Source: Shinella pollutisoli
GTDB taxonomy: Bacteria > Pseudomonadota > Alphaproteobacteria > Rhizobiales > Rhizobiaceae
Length of the DNA: 64,000 nt
Assembly: GCF_024609765.1 (NCBI RefSeq)
Contig: NZ_JANFDG010000006.1
Span: 1 to 64,000 of the forward strand
Reading direction: 5' to 3'
Positions 44,893 to 61,179 of the stretch are shown here, piece by piece. Made by a program: the position numbers and the translations under genes. The notes under the pieces were generated by a model. The model was not told the DNA's origin, searched no databases, and worked only from the letters and a program-made list of their open reading frames with translations. Within the stretch, counting starts at the first letter, position 1; each line of letters opens with the position of its first letter.

Positions 44893-45954
44893 ATGCGGAT
44901 TTCGTCCATTCTATTGAGCCCCCTCTATGCGCTTCAGCTCGCCTCCGGCGCCAAGTCCTTCGCGGACAATCCCGTCATCGGCAGCAAATGGCTGAACGGC
45001 AAGGGGCTGCACGAGAAACGCGTGGCGCTCGCCATGCGCATGGCGGCGTGGCGGCGGCGCAGGCTCGAGCACCTCGCCGCGCCCGAGCACCGGCGCCAGT
45101 ATGCCGAGAAGGGCTACGTGCAGATCGACGACTTCCTGCCGCCGGAGGTCTTCGCCGCCGTGACCCGGGAGGTCGCCGAGCGCGATTTCGACCGCTACGA
45201 CATGGTGCAGGGGGCGACGGCCACCCGCCGGGCGACCATCGACGACCGCGATATCGAGGGCCTGCCGGGCTTCAAGGCGGCGCGCAACGATCCGCGGCTC
45301 GCCAACCTGATCCGCTACGTCTCCTCCCATGCCGGCCAGCCGCTGCTCGTCGTGCAGGTGGTGATGGCGCTGCCCTCGGCCGTCGAGAAGGGCTCGACCG
45401 ATCCGCAGACCGTGCTGCACAGCGACACGTTCCATCCGACGGCGAAGGCCTGGCTGTTCCTGCGCGACGTCGGCGAGGAGGACGGCCCCTTCGCCTACGT
45501 GCCGGGCTCGCACGAGATGACGCCGCAGCGCTTCGCCTGGGAGCGGAAGATCAGCGAGAACGCCGACCATATCGACAACAAGTATTCCGCCCGCGGCTCG
45601 CTGCGCATCCGCGCCGACGAGCTCGCCGCGCTCGGCTACGGCGATCCGGTCAAGATGACCGTCAGGGCCAACACGCTGATCGTCGCCGACACGCACGGTT
45701 TCCATGCGCGCAGCCCGAGCTACAAGGCGACGACGCGCATCGAGATCTACGGCTCGCACCGGCGCAACCCGTTCCTGCCGTTCACCGGCCTGCATCTCGC
45801 CTCGCTGCCCTTCGTGGCCGGCAACATGCACCGCGTCGCCCTGTCGCTCGAACGGCTCAGCGGCCGGCTCGGCCTCAAGGGCTCGCCTTGGAAGCCGGTG
45901 GGGGCGGGCAGGCTCGACGAGTGGTCGACGCGGCTGAAGAAGCCGGAGTCGTAG
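44893..45954 (+). CDS. Phytanoyl-CoA dioxygenase family protein
   Basis: 353 residues, Fe(II)/2-oxoglutarate dioxygenase fold. The metal facial triad is LHSDTFHPTAKAWLFL (HxD) and DTHGFHARSP (distal His), with a 2-oxoglutarate-binding Arg in TTRIEIYGSHRRNPF. Substrate is unknown; bacterial members hydroxylate diverse lipids or small molecules. The ATG at 44893 follows CAGGCAGG. The stop codon lies within the first copy of the 102-bp tandem repeat, so the repeat begins at the very end of the coding region. Confidence 0.86.
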   Translation: MRISSILLSPLYALQLASGAKSFADNPVIGSKWLNGKGLHEKRVALAMRMAAWRRRRLEHLAAPEHRRQYAEKGYVQIDDFLPPEVFAAVTREVAERDFDRYDMVQGATATRRATIDDRDIEGLPGFKAARNDPRLANLIRYVSSHAGQPLLVVQVVMALPSAVEKGSTDPQTVLHSDTFHPTAKAWLFLRDVGEEDGPFAYVPGSHEMTPQRFAWERKISENADHIDNKYSARGSLRIRADELAALGYGDPVKMTVRANTLIVADTHGFHARSPSYKATTRIEIYGSHRRNPFLPFTGLHLASLPFVAGNMHRVALSLERLSGRLGLKGSPWKPVGAGRLDEWSTRLKKPES

Positions 45955-46251
45955 GCCCCTCCGGCCTGCCGGCCATCTTCCCCTCGAGGGCAAGGCAATC
46001 GCATATGGAATTATGAGGGCGCTTCTTGCCCTTCTCCCCGCCGGGGAGAGTCGTAGGCCCCTCCGGCCTGCCGGCCATCTTCCCCTCGAGGGCAAGGCAA
46101 TCGCATATGGAATTATGAGGGCGCTTCTTGCCCTTCTCCCCGCCGGGGAGAGTCGTAGGCCCCTCCGGCCTGCCGGCCATCTTCCCCTCGAGGGCAAGGC
46201 AATCGCATATGGAATTATGAGGGCGCTTCTTGCCCTTCTCCCCGCCGGGGA
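45946..46251. repeat. Three tandem copies of a 102-bp unit
   Basis: Copies start at 45946, 46048 and 46150 and look identical over GAGTCGTAGGCCCCTCCGGC, GGCAAGGCAATCGCATATGG and AATTATGAGGGCGCTTCTTG. The unit contains parts of both mosaic repeat families. The period of 102 (34 codons) keeps frames open through the array, making a repetitive but spurious peptide. The first copy includes the stop codon of the dioxygenase gene. The pattern points to recent slippage or unequal recombination. Confidence 0.92.
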
Positions 46252-46440
46252 GAAGGTCGCGGCAGCGGGATGAGGGGGCGCACCGAGCAAAATCATGTTC
46301 GTGCCGGCGTATTGCCCCCTCATCCGGCCCTTCGGGCCACCTTCTCCCCGCCGGGGAGAAGGGGAAGCGGAGACGCCGCATTCCACATGCGATTGCCTTG
46401 CCCTTGAGGGGGAGAGCCCGGCAGGGCAGAGGGGGCAGGC
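46228..46440. repeat. Mosaic repeat cluster between dioxygenase and malic enzyme genes
   Basis: After the tandem copies come an inverted pair, CCTTCTCCCCGCCGGGGAGA (ending GGGATGAGGGGGCG) and CCCCCTCATCCGGCCCTTCG (with another CCGCCGGGGAGAAGG), then a CTTGAGGGGGAGAGCCCGGC arm at 46392-46438. The two genes converge here, so the cluster separates two transcript ends. Confidence 0.65.
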
Positions 46441-52248: not shown

Positions 52249-53619
52249 ATGGAAACGAAAGCCAACTACGCCCTCGTCGGCTTCTTCACCATCTTCGTGA
52301 TCGCGGCCGCCTTCGGCTTCGTCTACTGGATGTCGCAATTCGGCCGCAGCGGCGAGATGGCGCCGCTCGCCATCCGCATCCCGGGCTCGGCCAACGGGCT
52401 GTCGATCGGCTCGCCCGTGCGCTTCAACGGCATTCCCGTCGGCTCGGTGCGCAGCCTCGCCATCGACCAGGACGACCCGAAATTCTCGGTGGCGCTGACG
52501 GAGGTCTCGACCAGCGCGCCGGTCAAGCGCTCCACCAATGCCGTGCTCGAGGTGCAGGGCCTGACGGGGGCCGCCTATATCGAGCTCGGCGGCGGCGATC
52601 CCGGCGACCCGAACATCCTGAAGGAGGCGATCGAGAACGACTCGACGGCGGTGCTCGACGCGCAGCAGTCGAGCGTCACCAACATCCTGTCGACCGCCGA
52701 CCGCATCCTCAAGAAGGTCGACGGCACGATCGACGACATCCAGGGCTTCGTCACCGAGGCGCGCGGACCGCTCACCAACACGATCCGCAACGCCGAGAAA
52801 TTCTCCGACGCGCTGACGCGCAACGCCGACAACATCGACACCTTCCTCCAGAGCGTCGGCGGGCTGTCGGACACGTTCCGCAACCTGTCCGGCCGGCTCG
52901 ACAGCACGCTCGCCTCGATCGAATCGCTCGTCAAGGCGGTCGACACGCAGAAGGTGGACAACGTCGTGTCGAGCATCGACAAGGTGACGACGGACCTCGC
53001 CGCCGCCTCCGGCGACGTCAAGGACACCGTCGCGGCGGTCCGCCGGACGGCCGACACGTTCGACGCCTTCGGCAAGAACGCCACGGCGACGCTCGACAAG
53101 GTGGACGAGCTGATCGCGTCGGTCGACGCGCAGAAGGTGAAGGGCGTGGTCGACAACATCTCCGTCGCCAGCGCCGACGCGCGCAAGGCGATCTCCTCCG
53201 TCACGGGCGTGGCCGACCGGATCGGCCGGCGCGAGGAGGACATCGACCAGATCATCACCGACGTGCAGCAGATGGCCAACAAGCTCAACAACGCCTCCAC
53301 CCGCGTCGACGGCGTGCTCGCCAAGCTCGACGGCTTCCTGGGCGAGGGCGATTCGGAATCGCTCTTCGCCGAGGCGAGGGCGACGCTGCAGTCGATCCGC
53401 ACCGCCGCCGACACGCTCGGCGCGCGGATAGGCCCCATCGCCGACAACCTGCAGCGCTTCTCCGGCAGCGGGCTTCGCGACGTGGAGGCGCTCGTCTCCG
53501 ATACGCGCCGCACGGTGCAGGGCCTCGAGAACGCCATTTCCGGCTTCGAGCGCAATCCGCAACGCCTGATTTTCGGCGGCGAGACCGTCAAGCAGTACGA
53601 CGGCCGCACGCGGCGCTGA
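52249..53619 (+). CDS. mlaD: MCE-domain (MlaD-like) lipid-binding protein
   Basis: 456 residues. One N-terminal transmembrane helix (about 8-29), an MCE domain (about 38-115) with GLSIGSPVRFNGIPVGSVRS and LEVQGLTGAAYIELGGG, then a long helical tail (about 125-440) of repeated heptad-like segments. The tail is far longer than E. coli MlaD (183 residues) and could form a periplasm-spanning tube or needle, as in PqiB/YebT-like MCE proteins. It follows mlaF after 21 nt. Confidence 0.92.
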   Translation: METKANYALVGFFTIFVIAAAFGFVYWMSQFGRSGEMAPLAIRIPGSANGLSIGSPVRFNGIPVGSVRSLAIDQDDPKFSVALTEVSTSAPVKRSTNAVLEVQGLTGAAYIELGGGDPGDPNILKEAIENDSTAVLDAQQSSVTNILSTADRILKKVDGTIDDIQGFVTEARGPLTNTIRNAEKFSDALTRNADNIDTFLQSVGGLSDTFRNLSGRLDSTLASIESLVKAVDTQKVDNVVSSIDKVTTDLAAASGDVKDTVAAVRRTADTFDAFGKNATATLDKVDELIASVDAQKVKGVVDNISVASADARKAISSVTGVADRIGRREEDIDQIITDVQQMANKLNNASTRVDGVLAKLDGFLGEGDSESLFAEARATLQSIRTAADTLGARIGPIADNLQRFSGSGLRDVEALVSDTRRTVQGLENAISGFERNPQRLIFGGETVKQYDGRTRR

Positions 53620-53649
53620 TTTCCTGCGCCGACGCGGTGACAGGAGCGT

Positions 53650-54309
53650 GTGCCGCTGCTACACATGCTTGCAGAACGGGTTCGAGGGACTATGACGGCA
53701 TCGGGTGCGGAGTTGTTGCGAAACGGGACGGCGGGACGCGCCGTGCTTGCCGTTCTGGTCTCGGGCCTGCTCGCCGCCTGCGGCAGCGCGCAGGCGACGA
53801 ACGACACGTTCGGGTTGTCGGCCGCCGCCACCGTCGAGGGCCCGTCGGCCCGCAACCGGCAGATCCTCGTGCCGCAGCCCTCGGCGCTGAAGGCGCTCGA
53901 CAGCGAGCAGATCGTCGTGCGCCCCTCGGCCTCCGAGATCCAGTACCTCGCCAAGTCGCAGTGGAGCGACAGCCTGTCGAAGATGGTGCAGGCGAGGCTC
54001 GTCCAGACCTTCGAGAACAGCGGCCGGGTCGGCGGCGTCGGCAAGCCGGGCGAGGGGCTGGCGATCGACTACCAGGTCGTCACCGACATCCGCGCCTTCG
54101 AGGTGCAGACGGGCGGCGCGGACACGGCGATCGTCGAGATCTCCGCGAAGCTCCTCAACGACCGCAACGGCACCGTGCGCGCGCAGAAGGTTTTTCGCGC
54201 GACGGCGCCGGTGGCGGGCTCGGCCAACACCGCCTTCGTCAAGGCGCTCGACACCGCCTTCAAGGCGGTCGCCGCCGACATCGTCGGCTGGACGCTGGGG
54301 AACATCTGA
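53650..54309 (+). CDS. ABC-type transport auxiliary lipoprotein (PqiC-like)
   Basis: 219 residues. The lipobox is VLVSGLLAACGS with Cys about 44. The ABC_trans_aux domain contains RQILVPQPSALKALDSEQIV, EIQYLAKSQWSDSLSKMVQA and a C-terminal IVGWTLG. Such outer-membrane lipoproteins partner MCE proteins to dock the transporter at the outer membrane. The start is GTG at 53650 behind CAGGAGC; an ATG at 53692 behind CGAGGGACT would give a more usual short signal peptide. It is the last gene of the Mla operon. Confidence 0.86.
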   Translation: MPLLHMLAERVRGTMTASGAELLRNGTAGRAVLAVLVSGLLAACGSAQATNDTFGLSAAATVEGPSARNRQILVPQPSALKALDSEQIVVRPSASEIQYLAKSQWSDSLSKMVQARLVQTFENSGRVGGVGKPGEGLAIDYQVVTDIRAFEVQTGGADTAIVEISAKLLNDRNGTVRAQKVFRATAPVAGSANTAFVKALDTAFKAVAADIVGWTLGNI

Positions 54310-54351
54310 TTCCCTGGAGGGCAGCGGCCGGAGCGCGCGGCTGTCCACCGG

Positions 54352-55101
54352 GTCGCCTCCGTCGCGGAGGCGCGGGTCGAAACACCACCTTCGCCACGCT
54401 TCGCACCGACGAGCGAGTCGCCCCCCTCGCGAGGCGCGGATCGAAACAGATAGTGGCCAAAAGCGTCGCCGGGCGTGAGAATGTCGCCTCCTCACGGAGG
54501 CATGGATCGAAACGTGCTGCACCAAGCACTCCACGCCGAGCATGAGGGTCGTCTCCTCACGGAGGTGTGGATCGAAACTGGTACGACGTGGAGACGGAAT
54601 ACTACGAACAGCGTCGCCTCTCACGCTGAGACGTGGATTGAAACCTGGCGAAGATGACGAGCGAACCCAACAAGCCGGGGTCGCCTCCGCGCGGAGGCGT
54701 GGATCGAAACACGGTGACATCGCGTCGGCTCTGCCGACGTCGGCCGTCGCCTCCCTTGCGGAGGCGTGGATCGCAACGACCTGATCTGCTGGGGCCTCTC
54801 ACACAAAGGGCGTTGCCTCCCGCGGGGCGTGGGATTGAAACCAGCCTCAGCTCGGGCAGCCTTGGTTCGAGCTGGCGGACTGCCTCCCTTGCGGAGGGCG
54901 TGAATTGAAACCGGACCGTGTTTGTCGGGACCAAGGGCCTGATGCGTCGTCTCCCCCGCCGAGGCGTGGATCGAAACGCTACCAACGATGAACGGACGGC
55001 AAAGCGCGTCTGTCGCCTCCGGCACGGGGGCGTGGATAGAAACCCGACGGCGGCAGCGACTTCGGCGTCCGAGAGCGTCGCTTTCCTCGCGCCGGCGTGG
55101 A
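54352..55101 (+). CRISPR. Degenerate type I-C-like CRISPR array, 12 repeats, no cas genes or leader
   Basis: Repeats start at 54352, 54417, 54483, 54548, 54613, 54680, 54746, 54812, 54879, 54946, 55012 and 55077 (30-33 nt; the last is truncated). The eleven spacers are 33, 35, 34, 34, 35, 35, 34, 37, 34, 34 and 33 nt with unrelated sequences. The consensus repeat is GTCGCCTCC, a 4-6 nt variable centre, then GGAGGCGTGGATCGAAAC, matching the type I-C layout of palindromic stem plus GAAAC end. Repeats differ from one another at several positions, unlike a live array, yet nine of the twelve keep GAAAC behind a near-intact GGAT-type handle. Only 42 bp separate the first repeat from the upstream stop codon, with no AT-rich leader. 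It lies between two convergent genes. Confidence 0.85.
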
Positions 55102-55171
55102 ACGGCGCGGATCGATCCGCCCGGACGGGGACCCGGTTTCCGCCGGCGGATCGGCAGTGCCGGAAAGGCGT

Positions 55172-55226
55172 CCGCCGGTCCCTTGCCGCAAGCGGGGAAG
55201 GGACCGGCAGGGCGGATGAGGGGCGG
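55172..55226. repeat. Mosaic repeat copy next to the CRISPR relic
   Basis: CCGCCGGTCCCTTGCCGCAA followed by GCGGGGAAGGGACCGGCAGG and GCGGATGAGGGGCG, the same family as at 188-236. It lies between the last degenerate repeat and the gpr stop codon. Confidence 0.6.
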
Positions 55227-55231
55227 GCGCC

Positions 55232-58200
55232 TTAGCCGAAGCGTCCCGCCGCGTGCGCCAGCATGGTGTAGACCTTGCCGGTGTCGGAGGTGAGGTAGGT
55301 CTGGGTCATCACCTTGTCGCGGTCGTTGCGGGCGACATCGGCGAGCAGCTTCTCGAAGTCGGAGATGTAGCGGTCGACGGCGGTGCGGAACTCCGGCTCC
55401 CGCTCGTACTTGCGCTTGATCTCGTCGAAGGTCTGCTGGCCCTTCAGCGTGTAGAGGCGGCGGGTGAAGACGTCGCGCTCGCCGCGCTGGTAGCGCCGCC
55501 ACAGGTCGACGGAGGCGTCGTGGTCGATGGCGCGGGCGATGTCGACCGACAGCGAGTTCAGCGATTCGACCACGTGGCGCGGGTTGCGGCTGTCGGCCGG
55601 GCGGGTCGCCTGGGCCTCGCCGCGCGGCTGGCCGAACTGGCTCTCCTCGCGCGAGGCGCCGCGCAGGAGGTCGCGCATCCAGCCGCCCTCGCCGGAGGAG
55701 GGACGGGCCTCGGCCTCGGCGGGAAGGGGCTGCGGGTGCGGCGGCTGCTGCGGCACGACCGTCGCCGCGGCGGCGCGCTCGAGGCCGAGGCTGCCGCGCA
55801 GCGGCAGGCTTTCCTCGCGGCGCGGCTCGGCACGCGTCTCCTGCGCCGCCGCCGGGCGGATGACCGGCTGGGCGGCGGGGCGGGCGACCTCGAGGGCGGC
55901 CGAGGACTTGCCGATGATGTCGGAGAGGTCCTGCAGCGCCTTGATCTGCTCGCTGACGGCGCGGCGCATCTGCGCGGCGTTCTCCTTGGCCTCCTCGGGC
56001 AGGTCGAAGGCGCCGCGCTTCAGCTCGCCGCGCGTGGCGTCGAGCTCGCGGCGGATCTCCGCGGCGGCGCGGCGGATCTCCTCGGTCGCGCCGGCGAACT
56101 TGCCGACCGCTTCCTCGACGGCGCCGCGCAGCGCCTCGCGCATGACGAGGGTCGCCTCCTCCGACTTCTTGCCGGATTCGCCGAGCATGCGGTCGACGTC
56201 GGAGAGCGAGGCGCCGACGCTGCCGCGCAGCCGGTTCGCCACTTCCTTCGTGCGCTCCTCGGCGCGGGTGAAGGCGCCCTCGACCGACTGGCCCGCCTCC
56301 TCGCCGGCCTTCACCAGCGATTCACGCAGCGTGCCGGCGGCGACTTCCGCGCGCTTCTCGGTCTCGCTCAGGATGCGGCCGACGTCTGCGAAGGCGCTCT
56401 GCAGGCCGCCGCGCAGATTGCCGGCGATCTGGCCCGAGCGCTCCTCGGCGCGGGCGAAGACGCCCTCGACCATGCCTTCGAGCGAGCGCATCGTCTTCTC
56501 GATCTCCTCCGAGCGCTGGACGAGGCCGACGGAGAGCGCGCGCAGCGCGTCCTGCCGTTCCTCGAGCGTCGAGGCGAGGTTGGACTGGGCGGCCGAGAGC
56601 AGGTCGGAGGCCTGCGCCAGGATGCGCGAATGGTCCTCGAAGCGGCCGACGATGCCGCCGATCTGCGACAGCGTGCCGGCCGAGATGTCGGCCAGGCGGT
56701 CGACCTTGCCCTCGAGCAGGCGCGACGAGGTCGAGACCATGTCGGCGGCGCGCTCGGCGGCGGTGGAGAAGCGCTCGCTGGTCTGCGACAGGCTCTGGTC
56801 GACGGCCGAGAGCGTGCGGCTCGCCTCGTCGACGAGGCCGGCGATCGCGCCGTTGCTCTGCGACAGGCGCGAGACGAGGCTCATGACGCTCGCCTGCAGG
56901 CCGTTCTCGATGTCGCGCATCACGCCGGCCGCCTCTTCCGTGCGGCCGGAGATCGCCGCCAGCGTGTCGGCCGTGCGGGCGGAGATGGCGTCGATCAGCG
57001 CGGTGTTCTCGCTGCGCAGCCGTTCGGCGCTTTCGCGCGCGGCGGCGCCGATGCGCTCGGCGGCCTCGCGGCCGGTCGCCGCATAGCGGTCGACGACGGG
57101 GCGGGCCTGCTCGTCGATGAGGCGCGAAAGCTCCTCGGTGCGGCTGGCGAGCATCGAGTTCAGCTCGCGCGTGCGCTCGTCGAGGGCCGCGCGGATCGAG
57201 CTGCCGCGGGCTTCCAGCGCCTTCTCGACGTCGCCGGCACCGGCCTTGATGGCTTCGGCCTGCGACTGCAGCCGGCCTTCGGTCTCCGCGAAGCGGGCGG
57301 CGGCGGCCTCGGTCGTCTCGGCGACCGTGCGGGCGAAGGCCTCGTTGCGGGCGCTGATGCTGCCTGCGAACTCCTCGCCGGTGCGGGCGAGGACCTCTGC
57401 CGCACGCTGCGCCTCGGCGCCCATCTCCTCGGCCGCGCGCGACACGGCGCCGCGCAGCGACTTGCTGAGATGGGTGAATTCCTCGCCGGTGCGGGCGATC
57501 GACTGGGCCGAGCGGATCGCCTCGGCGTCGAGGTCCTGCGCGGCCTGCGAGACCGCCTCGCGCAGCGTCTGGGCGAGGCCTGCGGCCTTGCCGTCGATCG
57601 TGCGGTTGACGCTGTCGAGGCCGACGGTCAGCGCCCGGTCCATGGTGCCGAGGCGCTCCTCGATGCGGCCGGTGCGTTCGTCGATGGTGGCGGCGATGCG
57701 TTCGGCGGCCTCGCCGGTGACGCGCTCGATGTCGCCGACGCGGCCCGACAGCACGGCCTCGATGCGGCTCGCGGCCCCCGTGCTCACGCGCTCGATCTCC
57801 TCGGCGCGGCCGGTCAGCGCCCCGTCGATGCGGCGGCTCGCTTCCTCGGTGACGCGCTCGATGTCGCCGACGCGGTCGCTGAGCGTGCCGTCGATGCGGC
57901 GGCTCGCCTCGTCGGCCATGCGTTCGAAGTCGCCGACGCGGCCGGCGAGTGCGGCGGCGATGCGCGCCGTCGCCTCGTCGCCGATGCGGTCGACCTCGGC
58001 CGCCGGGCGCGCCATGGCCTCGGCGATGCGGGAGGAAACGTCGTTGCCGACCCGGTCGAGATCGGCGAGCCGGTCGGCGAGCGTGTCGGAAATGCGCGCG
58101 GCGGCGGTGTCGACGATGCCCGAGACGGTGCCCAGGCTGTCCTCGACGCGCTGCTCCAGCCGGCCGAGGTTCTCCCCGATGCGGTTGCCGGTGGCGTCGA

Positions 58201-60901
58201 GGCGGATGCCGACGCCGTCGATCGTCTGCTCGATGCGGCTGCCGAAGGAATCGGCGGTGGCGGCGATGCGCGCGGAGGTCTCGCCGAAGCGCTCGGCCAC
58301 GGCGCCGACGCTTTCGCGCACGCGCTGGTCGAGGGCGGCGGCGCTGCCGTCGATGGCGCGGCTCAGCGCCTCCTCGTGCTGCTCGAGCGTCATCTCCAGC
58401 ATGCCGGCGCTGGTGGCGATCGACGTGCCGATGCTCGTCACCTGGTCGTTCAGCGTGTCGTCGAGCTGGCGGCGGCCGTCGGCGATGGCGAGATTGATGG
58501 CGTCGATGCGGTCGTCCAGCGTGGCGCGGATCTGCTCCTGGGTGGAGATGAGGGAGCCCGCGAGCTCCGCGGCGCGGCCGGACAGCGCCTCGGCGATGCT
58601 CGCGGCACGGCCGGAGAAGGCGTCGGCGAATTCGGCGGCCTGGCCCTGCAGCACGCCGCCGAGCTCGCGGCTGCCTTCCGACAGCGCGGTCTCGACCCGG
58701 TCGGCGGCGGCGTCGATCGCCGAGCGCATGGCGCCGGTGCTTTCGGTGAGGGCGGCGGCGAGGCCGGAGGTGCGGTCGGTCACGACCTCGTCGATGCGGC
58801 TTGCCGCCTCGTCGAGCGCGCTCTCGACGCGCCGGGCGGCGGAGCCGACCGACTGCTCGAGCCGGCCGCCGGTCTCGTCGAGCATGGTGGCGATGGCCGC
58901 CGTGCGCTCGGACAGCGCGCCGTCGATGCGGCTGTGGCCGGCGGCGAGCACCGAGCCGATCTCCCCGGCGCGGGCGCCGAGCGCCTCTTCCATGCGGGTC
59001 TGCGCGGCCTCCAGGCCGGAGGCGATCGCCGTGCCGTGATGGTCGAGCGCGCCGGTGAGGCGGCGCTCGCTGCCGGTGATCGTCTCGGCGAGCGCGTCGG
59101 CGCGGGCGCCGAAGCCGGTCTCGATGCGGTTCTGCACGTCGGCGAGGCCGCCGAGCAGGGCGGCGGACTTGTCCGTGAGCACCGAGCCGATGCGCTCGTG
59201 CGCGCCGCTGACGGCGGCGGCGATCGCGTCGGCATGGCCGGCGACGGCGCTTTCGAGCACTTCCTGGCCCGTGCCGAGCGTGGTGGCGAGCGCCAGCGAC
59301 TGGTCGGTCAGCGTGCTGCCGATGCGCTCGATGCTGGTCGTCAGGATGCCGTCGATCGCCTCGCGGCCGCCGGCGACGGTCTCGTTGATGCGGGCGAGGC
59401 TCTCCATCAGCTTGGAATCGAGCGAGCCGGCGCGCCGGTCGAAGGCCTCGGCGAATTCCTCCACGCGCTGGTCGAAGGCGCCACCGATGCGGTCGACCGT
59501 CGCCTGCATGCGCTCGTCGAAGAAGCCGGAGCGCAGGTCGAGGTCCATGATCGTGTCGTCGACCGCGTTCTTGAGGCTCTGGCGGAAGGCGGCACCCTTC
59601 TCGTCGAGGGCGGCGTTCATCGACTGGAGCACGCCGTCGAGGCCGCCGGTGACGGCCTGCTGGCCGACGCTCAGGCTCTCGCTGATCTCGCGCGTGCGGG
59701 CGATCAGCGTCTCGTTGAGCTGGCGGGCGCGGTCGTTGAGGGCGGCGTTGAGCTTCTCGGTGTTGGAATCGAGCGTCGAGGCGCGCGTCTCGAACTGCTG
59801 GAGCAGGGCGCGGCCGCGGCTGTCGAGCGTGCCGGCGAGCTCCTCCAGCCGCGTGTCGAACTCGGTGGCGAGCGCGAGGCTCGAGGCGTTGAGCGTGGAG
59901 AGCAGGCTGTCGGCGCGGGCCGACAGCATGGCGCCGATCGTCTGCGTGGCGCTGTCGGATTTCTCCATCAGCATGGCCGCGCGCGTGTCGAGCATGGAGG
60001 CGAAGGCCTCGCCGGAGGTGGCGATGCGGCTGGCGATGCTCTCGCCGGCGCTGGAAAGCTCGTCCTTCAGCTGCTCGTGCGCGCCGGAGATGGAGGAGCG
60101 GATGCGCTCGGCATGGCTGACGATCGCCTCGCGCTCGGCGCCGAGCTCCTGGACGAGCGTGCGCACGCGCAGCTCGTTGTCGGCATAGCTGCGCTCGAGC
60201 GCGTTCACCTCGGAGTGGACGAGCGTCTCCAGCTCGGTGGCGCGCGCGATCGTGCGCTCGATGCCCTCGTTCATCGCCGAGACCTCGCGGCGCACGGCCT
60301 GGCCGACGGACATGATGCGGTCGGCGGCGACCGTCTCCGGCTCGGAGAGGCGCAGCGCCACCTCGGCCATCGAGCGGGCGGCGTTGCGCAGCTCGTGGGC
60401 GCGCGAGATCATCACCGCGAAGGCGAAGAACAGCATGATCGGCATGACGATGGCGACGACCATGCCGATGGCGCCGGGCAGCGCCACGAGGTCGGCGACC
60501 GAGCGGATCTGCCAGATGCCCGGCGCGTAGAGGAGGTTGGCTACGCCGAGGCCGCCGATCACCCACAGGATGGAGACGAGGATCGCCATGCGGATCGAGC
60601 CGCGGCCGGAGCGCATGTCGAGCGACTTCAGGATGGCGGCCGGCGACTTGCGCGAGGCGTCGTTGGCGGGGGCGAAGACGGGAGCCTTGGGCGCCGGCTC
60701 CGGGCCGAGGCTGCGCGGCGGGGCGTCGGCGGCGGCCGTCTGGCGGGCGGACGCCTTGTCCTTGCCGGCGGCGTTGGTCTCCGCGGCGTCCTTCCTGACG
60801 GGCGTTTCCGGAGCCAGATCGTCGAAGTCGATTTTGAGAGCCTCTTCCAGGGCCCGGAAGGCCTTGTCGTCGATAGACTCGGTGGACTTGTTCGTCGCCA
60901 T
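55232..60901 (-). CDS. gpr: Growth Pole Ring-like giant coiled-coil membrane protein
   Basis: 1,889 residues. The acidic/Pro-rich cytoplasmic N-terminus (1-90) is followed by two transmembrane segments (about 105-128 and 145-168), then about 1,450 residues of helical coiled coil built on degenerate units such as DGTLSDRVGDIERVTEEASR. A Pro-rich linker precedes a conserved C-terminal domain (about 1780-1889) with DLWRRYQRGERDVFTRRLYT and FRTAVDRYISDFEKLLADVA. This layout fits GPR of Agrobacterium and RgsE of Sinorhizobium, needed for unipolar growth. The ATG at 60901 is preferred over 60940, with GAGG upstream. Confidence 0.82.
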   Translation of the reverse strand: MATNKSTESIDDKAFRALEEALKIDFDDLAPETPVRKDAAETNAAGKDKASARQTAAADAPPRSLGPEPAPKAPVFAPANDASRKSPAAILKSLDMRSGRGSIRMAILVSILWVIGGLGVANLLYAPGIWQIRSVADLVALPGAIGMVVAIVMPIMLFFAFAVMISRAHELRNAARSMAEVALRLSEPETVAADRIMSVGQAVRREVSAMNEGIERTIARATELETLVHSEVNALERSYADNELRVRTLVQELGAEREAIVSHAERIRSSISGAHEQLKDELSSAGESIASRIATSGEAFASMLDTRAAMLMEKSDSATQTIGAMLSARADSLLSTLNASSLALATEFDTRLEELAGTLDSRGRALLQQFETRASTLDSNTEKLNAALNDRARQLNETLIARTREISESLSVGQQAVTGGLDGVLQSMNAALDEKGAAFRQSLKNAVDDTIMDLDLRSGFFDERMQATVDRIGGAFDQRVEEFAEAFDRRAGSLDSKLMESLARINETVAGGREAIDGILTTSIERIGSTLTDQSLALATTLGTGQEVLESAVAGHADAIAAAVSGAHERIGSVLTDKSAALLGGLADVQNRIETGFGARADALAETITGSERRLTGALDHHGTAIASGLEAAQTRMEEALGARAGEIGSVLAAGHSRIDGALSERTAAIATMLDETGGRLEQSVGSAARRVESALDEAASRIDEVVTDRTSGLAAALTESTGAMRSAIDAAADRVETALSEGSRELGGVLQGQAAEFADAFSGRAASIAEALSGRAAELAGSLISTQEQIRATLDDRIDAINLAIADGRRQLDDTLNDQVTSIGTSIATSAGMLEMTLEQHEEALSRAIDGSAAALDQRVRESVGAVAERFGETSARIAATADSFGSRIEQTIDGVGIRLDATGNRIGENLGRLEQRVEDSLGTVSGIVDTAAARISDTLADRLADLDRVGNDVSSRIAEAMARPAAEVDRIGDEATARIAAALAGRVGDFERMADEASRRIDGTLSDRVGDIERVTEEASRRIDGALTGRAEEIERVSTGAASRIEAVLSGRVGDIERVTGEAAERIAATIDERTGRIEERLGTMDRALTVGLDSVNRTIDGKAAGLAQTLREAVSQAAQDLDAEAIRSAQSIARTGEEFTHLSKSLRGAVSRAAEEMGAEAQRAAEVLARTGEEFAGSISARNEAFARTVAETTEAAAARFAETEGRLQSQAEAIKAGAGDVEKALEARGSSIRAALDERTRELNSMLASRTEELSRLIDEQARPVVDRYAATGREAAERIGAAARESAERLRSENTALIDAISARTADTLAAISGRTEEAAGVMRDIENGLQASVMSLVSRLSQSNGAIAGLVDEASRTLSAVDQSLSQTSERFSTAAERAADMVSTSSRLLEGKVDRLADISAGTLSQIGGIVGRFEDHSRILAQASDLLSAAQSNLASTLEERQDALRALSVGLVQRSEEIEKTMRSLEGMVEGVFARAEERSGQIAGNLRGGLQSAFADVGRILSETEKRAEVAAGTLRESLVKAGEEAGQSVEGAFTRAEERTKEVANRLRGSVGASLSDVDRMLGESGKKSEEATLVMREALRGAVEEAVGKFAGATEEIRRAAAEIRRELDATRGELKRGAFDLPEEAKENAAQMRRAVSEQIKALQDLSDIIGKSSAALEVARPAAQPVIRPAAAQETRAEPRREESLPLRGSLGLERAAAATVVPQQPPHPQPLPAEAEARPSSGEGGWMRDLLRGASREESQFGQPRGEAQATRPADSRNPRHVVESLNSLSVDIARAIDHDASVDLWRRYQRGERDVFTRRLYTLKGQQTFDEIKRKYEREPEFRTAVDRYISDFEKLLADVARNDRDKVMTQTYLTSDTGKVYTMLAHAAGRFG

Positions 60902-61179
60902 GCGGATACGCCTCGTTACCATGTCCGGAGCCGGTTCCACGCGTCCTGCCGCTGCTCAGGCGAGTGCGAACCGTCTCGGTCGGCGTCCGGTCTTGCCGCG
61001 GACCCTCATGGTGCGCGGCGTCCGGGGTCGCCCTTCATTCCAAATTCGCTCCATAAGCTGCAACCGGCGAGCGGAATATCTCCGGAAACGGCTTATCCAC
61101 CGGGGAAACTCCCGGCCGTACCGTAGTGACACATTAGCCGGTATCACACAATTGATTGCGATCTCCCTTCCGGCGAAAC

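Follow-up and report, generated by a model that had tools for sequence, protein, structure and literature searches.

The stretch of Shinella pollutisoli DNA analysed here (64 kb, hereafter the window) carries a degenerate type I-C-like CRISPR array of 12 repeats and 11 spacers at positions 54352..55108 of the forward strand, as delimited by repeat and spacer alignment and by matches to congeneric arrays. Upstream and co-directional with the array lies a gene for an ABC-type transport auxiliary lipoprotein (53650..54309, forward strand; PF03886 by Pfam), itself downstream of MlaD-type and ABC-transporter genes and a possible source of read-through into the array. The 42-bp gap between this gene and the first repeat (54310..54351) yielded no promoter-like site and is unlike the leader block common to seven other arrays. 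On the right flank, a long reverse-strand ORF (55232..60940) resembles apolipoproteins (PF01442 by Pfam) and allows the orthologous slot to be located in related genomes.

Repeat and spacer architecture and its genomic slot

By orientation, repeat 1 (R1; 54352..54383, forward strand) forms the leader-side end and retains a canonical hairpin, and repeat 12 (R12; 55077..55108, forward strand), a degenerate terminal repeat, forms the trailer end. Repeats measure 30–33 nt, with repeat 9 (R9) set as 54879–54911 (33 nt), and spacers S1 to S11 measure, in order, 33, 35, 34, 34, 35, 35, 34, 37, 34, 34 and 33 nt. The spacers are mutually unrelated, sharing at most 16 identical positions per pair with shifts of up to 5. 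The original prediction, made from the letters of the sequence alone, had described 12 repeats of 30–33 nt and 11 unrelated spacers of 33–37 nt between 54352 and 55101; the lengths and the pairwise spacer comparison agree with this description and the start is correct, but the array reaches 55108. The repeat form is close to GTCGCCTCC-loop-GGAGGCGTGGATCGAAAC, and the 11 full repeats all differ, with a mean of 6.5 differences per pair.

The 750-bp array matches arrays in two congeneric genomes, where the repeats are near-identical, at E values of 3.5e-22 and 3.8e-22; since the array itself was not used as the model, these matches exclude a chance origin. One of the two genomes has Cas8c, Cas7, Cas4c and Cas1c next to its 53 repeats. 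The window array's repeats are homologous to those adjoining I-C cas genes and, judged by such sequence comparison, this is a real type I-C-like CRISPR array. An Rfam scan of 53500–55600 gave no match at the gathering score, and three of the ten sub-threshold matches in that interval were CRISPR-DR9 repeats within the array. CRISPR finders that require near-identical repeats can overlook arrays of this kind.

The array stands in place of a gene that is conserved in the genus. In all 20 congeneric genomes compared, a Tim44-like gene on the opposite strand comes next after the lipoprotein gene, and the apolipoprotein-like ORF lies beyond it in 18 of the 20, namely those whose fetched stretch extends far enough; the same arrangement of a Tim44-like gene between the two flanks recurs in 8 Shinella contigs, a set that partly coincides with the 20 genomes. 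In the window genome the array occupies this slot, with no Tim44-like orthologue elsewhere and just a 24%-identical paralogue. The repeat anchor (at most one mismatch) was absent from all 100 other flank loci fetched, and the best eight of the 80 loci kept for the lipoprotein gene were Shinella homologues with 74–78% identity. No transposase or integrase was found among the 14 window ORFs scanned with Pfam, 6 of which had no match of any kind. Elsewhere in the window, a 102-bp unit occurs three times in tandem at 45946–46253 without a single difference (100% matches) and has the look of an intergenic palindromic element.

Neither promoter-like nor terminator-like sites were found between 53500 and 55300. 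We also compared the stretches upstream of repeats at 11 places: seven of them have a leader block in common (one on contig C1 of the same genome, two in genome G015 and one each in G002, G020, G012 and G008), and those upstream of the window array, of an array on contig C3 and of two others resemble none of the rest. Together with the degenerate terminal repeat and a repeat divergence of about 10%, the missing leader bears out the predicted relic status, and the assignment to a I-C architecture is upheld by repeats like those beside a complete I-C operon and by TTC or TTT at most inspected spacer targets.

Cas genes in the genome and across the genus

The search for cas genes gave different answers for the window and for the genome (5.2 Mb in 79 contigs, 99.6% complete). 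With Cas3, Cas5, Cas8c, Cas7, Cas4 and Cas1 as tblastn queries (E up to 1e-3), no homologue was found in the 64 kb, and genome-wide model searches for Cas1, Cas8c, Cas7, Cas3 and Cas4 returned nothing inside the window. The array is thus an orphan, as predicted, but the claim that cas genes are lacking fails for the genome as a whole: a cas3-cas5c-cas8c-cas7 operon, called I-C by PADLOC profiles, lies on another contig (C3). The cas5c, cas8c and cas7 genes are open, and cas3 is interrupted at the 5' end: in place of roughly the first 47 codons stands a sequence of which 60 bp recur at the ends of six contigs, with different DNA after each. The six contigs of this genome (G000) that have this 60-bp edge in common are C3, C19, C23, C32, C35 and C40. 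Our interpretation is that a multi-copy element has inserted in cas3 and that this sequence is its border, the remainder of the element being absent from the assembly at that point. Cas3 has no copy above the cut-off in the genome other than that of the operon. The Cas1 and Cas4 models had no match in the genome either, the same models matching in 9 of 14 (Cas1) and 8 of 14 (Cas4) control genomes.

Further remnants accompany the operon. A 48-bp cas4 stub follows cas7 and ends at a four-repeat array, which is degenerate and in which all repeats differ; contig C1 carries a single repeat together with a second, degraded copy. A repeat sequence model, built partly from the genome's own copies, recovered 15 copies, of which the window array accounts for 10, the array next to the operon for 4 and C1 for 1; R8 and R12 scored below its threshold. 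Relative to genome G015, dN/dS was 0.09 for cas7, 0.18 for cas8c, 0.13 for cas5 and 0.21 for the remaining part of cas3, as compared with 0.35 for the lipoprotein gene; by this measure cas3, cas5c, cas8c and cas7 are under purifying selection. The corresponding dS values were 0.26–0.30 for the cas genes and 0.46 for the lipoprotein gene, and the lower cas values may reflect slower change or transfer.

To place these findings in the genus, 21 genomes were compared, including that of the window and with one genome per species. Cas8c and Cas7 occurred together in 3 of the 21, and any Cas1 in 2, in just one of which a I-C Cas1 stands beside the operon; repeats were found in 7, one of them through a single weak match. 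Genome G002 harbors a complete cas3-cas5-cas8c-cas7-cas4-cas1 system with 53 repeats, G015 an operon whose cas4 is fragmented and which lacks an adjoining array, and G012 four degenerate repeats. The I-C systems of the genus are thereby found complete, as an effector without adaptation genes, as an array without effector and as single repeats. The complete system of G002 and the window array have the same repeat family, spacer length and orientation, and Cas3, Cas5, Cas8c and Cas7 of G002 are 75–92% identical to those of the window genome. Unlike G002, the window array has no leader, adjacent cas genes or identical repeats; searches of its genome did not find cas4 or cas1, and the cas3 there is interrupted.

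Several other loci of these relatives deserve mention in their own right. In G020, a leader-bearing array of 21 near-identical I-C repeats (G020:C2:599191-600523, equivalent to L040:7192-8524) resides in a genome in which Cas8c, Cas7 and Cas1 are not detectable, and is apparently a fresh orphan array. Between cas3 and cas5 of G002, directly before the cas5 start, a lone consensus-like I-C repeat (L039:13419-13450) may act as a regulatory guide or may simply be a stray copy. An N-terminal cas3 fragment in G008 (L045:7820-8425; residues 1–175 matched) runs into CRISPR repeats, a junction that looks like a deletion scar between cas3 and array. Finally, three repeats of a G015 array (L044:7568-7728) depart from the genus consensus by a paired stem change, with A-T in place of G-C.

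Spacer targets and repeat divergence

The original prediction that the array may record past immunity holds for three, perhaps four, of the 11 spacers. Spacer S8 (54842..54878, forward strand; peptide QPQLGQPWFELA) matches traG in plasmids and at congeneric loci. Eleven plasmid records match, five of them annotated TraG at that place and one plainly unrelated; S8 also matches four congeneric genomes, in three of which, on inspection, the site is unannotated and was called traG from the peptide. Spacer S10 (54978..55011, forward strand; peptide ATNDERTAKRV) likewise matches traG: nine plasmid records, all typed as conjugative, were recovered, one annotated as TraG and one as a response regulator (E 0.9), and Komagataeibacter records encode the same peptide at the target. 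Spacer S11 (55044..55076, forward strand) matches traD in antisense; of 57 records, the top two (E 5e-4 and 0.02) carry a traD annotation. Among the matches listed (20 of 57), others with E values down to 6e-3 have no traD annotation, and many S11 matches look like chance, the query being GC-rich. In the closest targets inspected, mismatches fall at third codon positions (3/3 and 4/4 for S8, 4/4 for S10, 3/3 and 5/5 in the two S11 records) and leave the peptide unchanged; six more distant S8 targets differ by one residue, or two in one case.

The fourth candidate, S5 (54645..54679, forward strand), matches plasmid dinB over 28–30 of 35 nt in four plasmid records, of which one is annotated dinB and the other three encode the same or a near-identical peptide. 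S5 differs from these targets at 5–7 of its 35 positions, mostly changing the peptide, as decay would produce. The 5' flank of the target is TTC at 9 of 17 inspected places, which are not independent of one another (4/8 for S8, 1/3 for S10, 0/2 for S11 and 4/4 for S5), and TTT at 6 and TTG at 2, both of the latter for S11; TTC is the I-C PAM in Pseudomonas aeruginosa, according to the account of that system in PMC7913775.

For 7 of the 11 spacers no credible target was found, S1, S2 and S6 having been searched just as part of the whole array. Plasmid searches gave no matches for S4, S7 and S9, and none below E 0.3 for S3; the whole array as query returned one weak match (E 0.8) from a phage collection. 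Back-translated patterns, one frame per spacer, had no exact match in viral contigs for S3, S4, S5 and S7 and two for S9. The S9 matches were set aside, as they stop short of the spacer end and a few would be expected by chance by our estimate, and the S5 pattern is insensitive because it was built from the spacer's own, probably altered, peptide. Two further target classes were rejected. Self-targeting was dismissed in that array DNA matches its own genome at E≤0.001 only at itself and at the two other arrays (25 of 85 first-look candidates scored), and spacers against cas genes in that the best ungapped identity to the I-C loci of three genomes is 20–24 positions, the shuffled maximum being 23–24.

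Divergence among the repeats amounts to 35 substitutions over 345 aligned sites plus 9 indels (about 10%), and it is unevenly spread. In the window array, 11 of 50 loop sites are changed as compared with 22 of 273 stem-plus-handle sites (Fisher p 0.0056); counts from the two remaining arrays of the genome point the same way (5/24 versus 5/124, p 0.011), with p 2.4e-4 for the arrays pooled, where the loop consensus was chosen to minimise loop changes and alignment and region limits were set by hand. With a C consensus 9 of 121 handle sites are changed and with a T consensus 13 of 121, the T variant weakening the loop contrast. The loops of the G002 array with its 53 repeats are variable too and, given this variation and the hand-made alignment and limits, we regard the evidence for a temporary constraint on stems and handles as moderate. 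Stem pairing is kept in 70 of 75 cells, with P ranging from 0.004 to 0.15 by assumed mutation spectrum, so that under a strong transition bias the retention no longer exceeds chance. Six of 11 repeats (R1, R3, R5, R7, R9 and R11) fold into a canonical or near-canonical hairpin, R4, R6, R8 and R10 fold otherwise and R2 is weak; the canonical fold was obtained for 4/4 consensus-like repeats of congeneric arrays and for 4/5 repeats from the genome's own short arrays. Neighbouring repeats are no more alike than distant ones (Mantel r 0.06, p 0.34); had the variants arisen during acquisition, neighbours would be expected to resemble each other. At 8–10% divergence, at least three intact spacers of 11 would arise without selection with a probability of 0.05–0.16, and at the loop's 22% with a probability below 0.001. 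As proof of selection, the intact spacers are weakened by the fact that spacers with an unchanged peptide are the easiest to find and by the mostly peptide-changing differences of S5.

Origin, decay and significance of the array

We consider it likely that the array is a relic in decay, a memory directed against conjugative elements whose service in trans probably lasted up to the interruption of cas3. A complete system would have acquired the spacers, at least some of them from conjugative elements, with two traG targets and one traD target. The cas4 and cas1 genes, and presumably cas2, would have been lost next, the cas4 stub remaining at the short array beside cas7. With adaptation gone, no fresh repeat copies would have been made, and every repeat would have mutated alone. 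For a time, Cas5c may have processed array transcripts for loading onto the effector in trans, a possibility that derives from the purifying selection on the effector genes. As the array is leaderless and sits directly behind the MlaD-type operon, and as neither promoter-like nor terminator-like sites were found, any present transcript would probably depend on read-through from that operon. The multi-copy element would then have cut the 5' end of cas3 and ended interference, DNA destruction being probably off with this cut, and what remains would be mostly fossil memory. The suggestion that a distant Cas system serves the array in trans may accordingly hold for the past, given the I-C effector operon on another contig, and is doubtful for the present, given the interrupted cas3 and several repeats without a I-C hairpin. 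Three observations run against this reading of relic memory: change is more frequent in loops than in stems and handles, a pattern not expected from purely neutral decay; between S8, S10 and S11 and their closest targets, none of the differences alters the peptide; and 7 of 11 spacers have no credible target. The loop excess and the intact spacers fit past or partial constraint, and the array may have lived longer than the word relic implies.

Other accounts of the locus draw on the same observations. Were the array still live in trans, read-through pre-crRNA would be cut by Cas5c at the repeats that fold, and the effector, with or without Cas3, would block the DNA of conjugative elements. Selection on the effector genes, the lack of a terminator-like site in 53500–55300, six canonical or near-canonical hairpins and three apparently intact spacers speak for such activity; the cut cas3, the missing leader and promoter-like site, the misfolding of R4, R6, R8 and R10 and the weakness of R2 make it unlikely in our view. 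A further alternative is that repeat divergence after the loss of adaptation was favoured or tolerated, reduced recombination guarding the spacers while processing held stem and handle. This would account for the excess of loop change in the window array and in the other two arrays taken together, and for the differences among repeats within every one of them, and the terminal repeats described for Enterococcus faecalis CRISPR2 (PMC5491264) can be counted in its support. The loops of the 53-repeat G002 array vary as well, however, so the variation may predate decay; the retention of stem pairs hinges on the mutation spectrum, several hairpins are broken and the chance of three or more intact spacers without selection is not negligible at 8–10% divergence, and we hold this alternative to be very unlikely. 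Nor do we give much credence to a further reading, itself quite improbable, in which learning was lost and memory kept: effector, stems and handles would be selected and repeat divergence would lock the spacers, leaving a heritable in-trans guard against conjugative elements, leaderless and behind a housekeeping operon. That the element is a tandem coding or structural repeat instead is scarcely conceivable; several ORFs of at least 80 aa do overlap the array on both strands, but the unrelated, alternating 33–37-nt spacers, the I-C repeats and the TTC/TTT-flanked targets rule this out, and the spacer targets contradict it.

Known systems place the decaying relic array in context, and PMC8616872 gives a review of orphan arrays and of incomplete systems. 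As reported in the CRISPR2 sections of PMC5491264, the orphan CRISPR2 of E. faecalis works with a Cas9 encoded elsewhere, acts against conjugative plasmids and is transcribed from its own leader, and its terminal degenerate repeats prevent spacer loss. The window array resembles it in having no adjacent cas genes, Cas proteins encoded elsewhere and degenerate repeats; unlike the window array, CRISPR2 uses Cas9 and its own leader, and where PMC5491264 treats degeneracy it is described for terminal repeats only. More generally, repeat polymorphism is discussed as a guard against array collapse in the relevant part of a review (PMC8047081). The I-C systems on pKLC102-like elements of P. aeruginosa share the type and the TTC PAM, and some lineages have a frameshifted cas1; as far as the account in PMC7913775 goes, they differ in lying on a conjugative element, in having a demonstrated anti-phage function and in matched spacers that are mostly against phages or prophages. 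The orphan I-F arrays of Escherichia coli are similarly small arrays remaining after cas loss, as outlined in PMC8616872, and their spacers match I-F cas genes, whereas the window spacers match I-C operons no better than shuffled ones. Arrays distant from cas genes are shorter for most types, and leaderless arrays tend to be short, in the comparisons given in PMC12814883. We conclude that the locus is a further case of a known kind, an orphan, decaying type I-C array.

The occurrence of I-C systems at several stages of decay within one genus makes the order and the speed of loss measurable. Arrays like that of the window could escape finders that need near-identical repeats. If stems and handles do outlast loops, such arrays would become datable, and past activity could be inferred from sequence alone.
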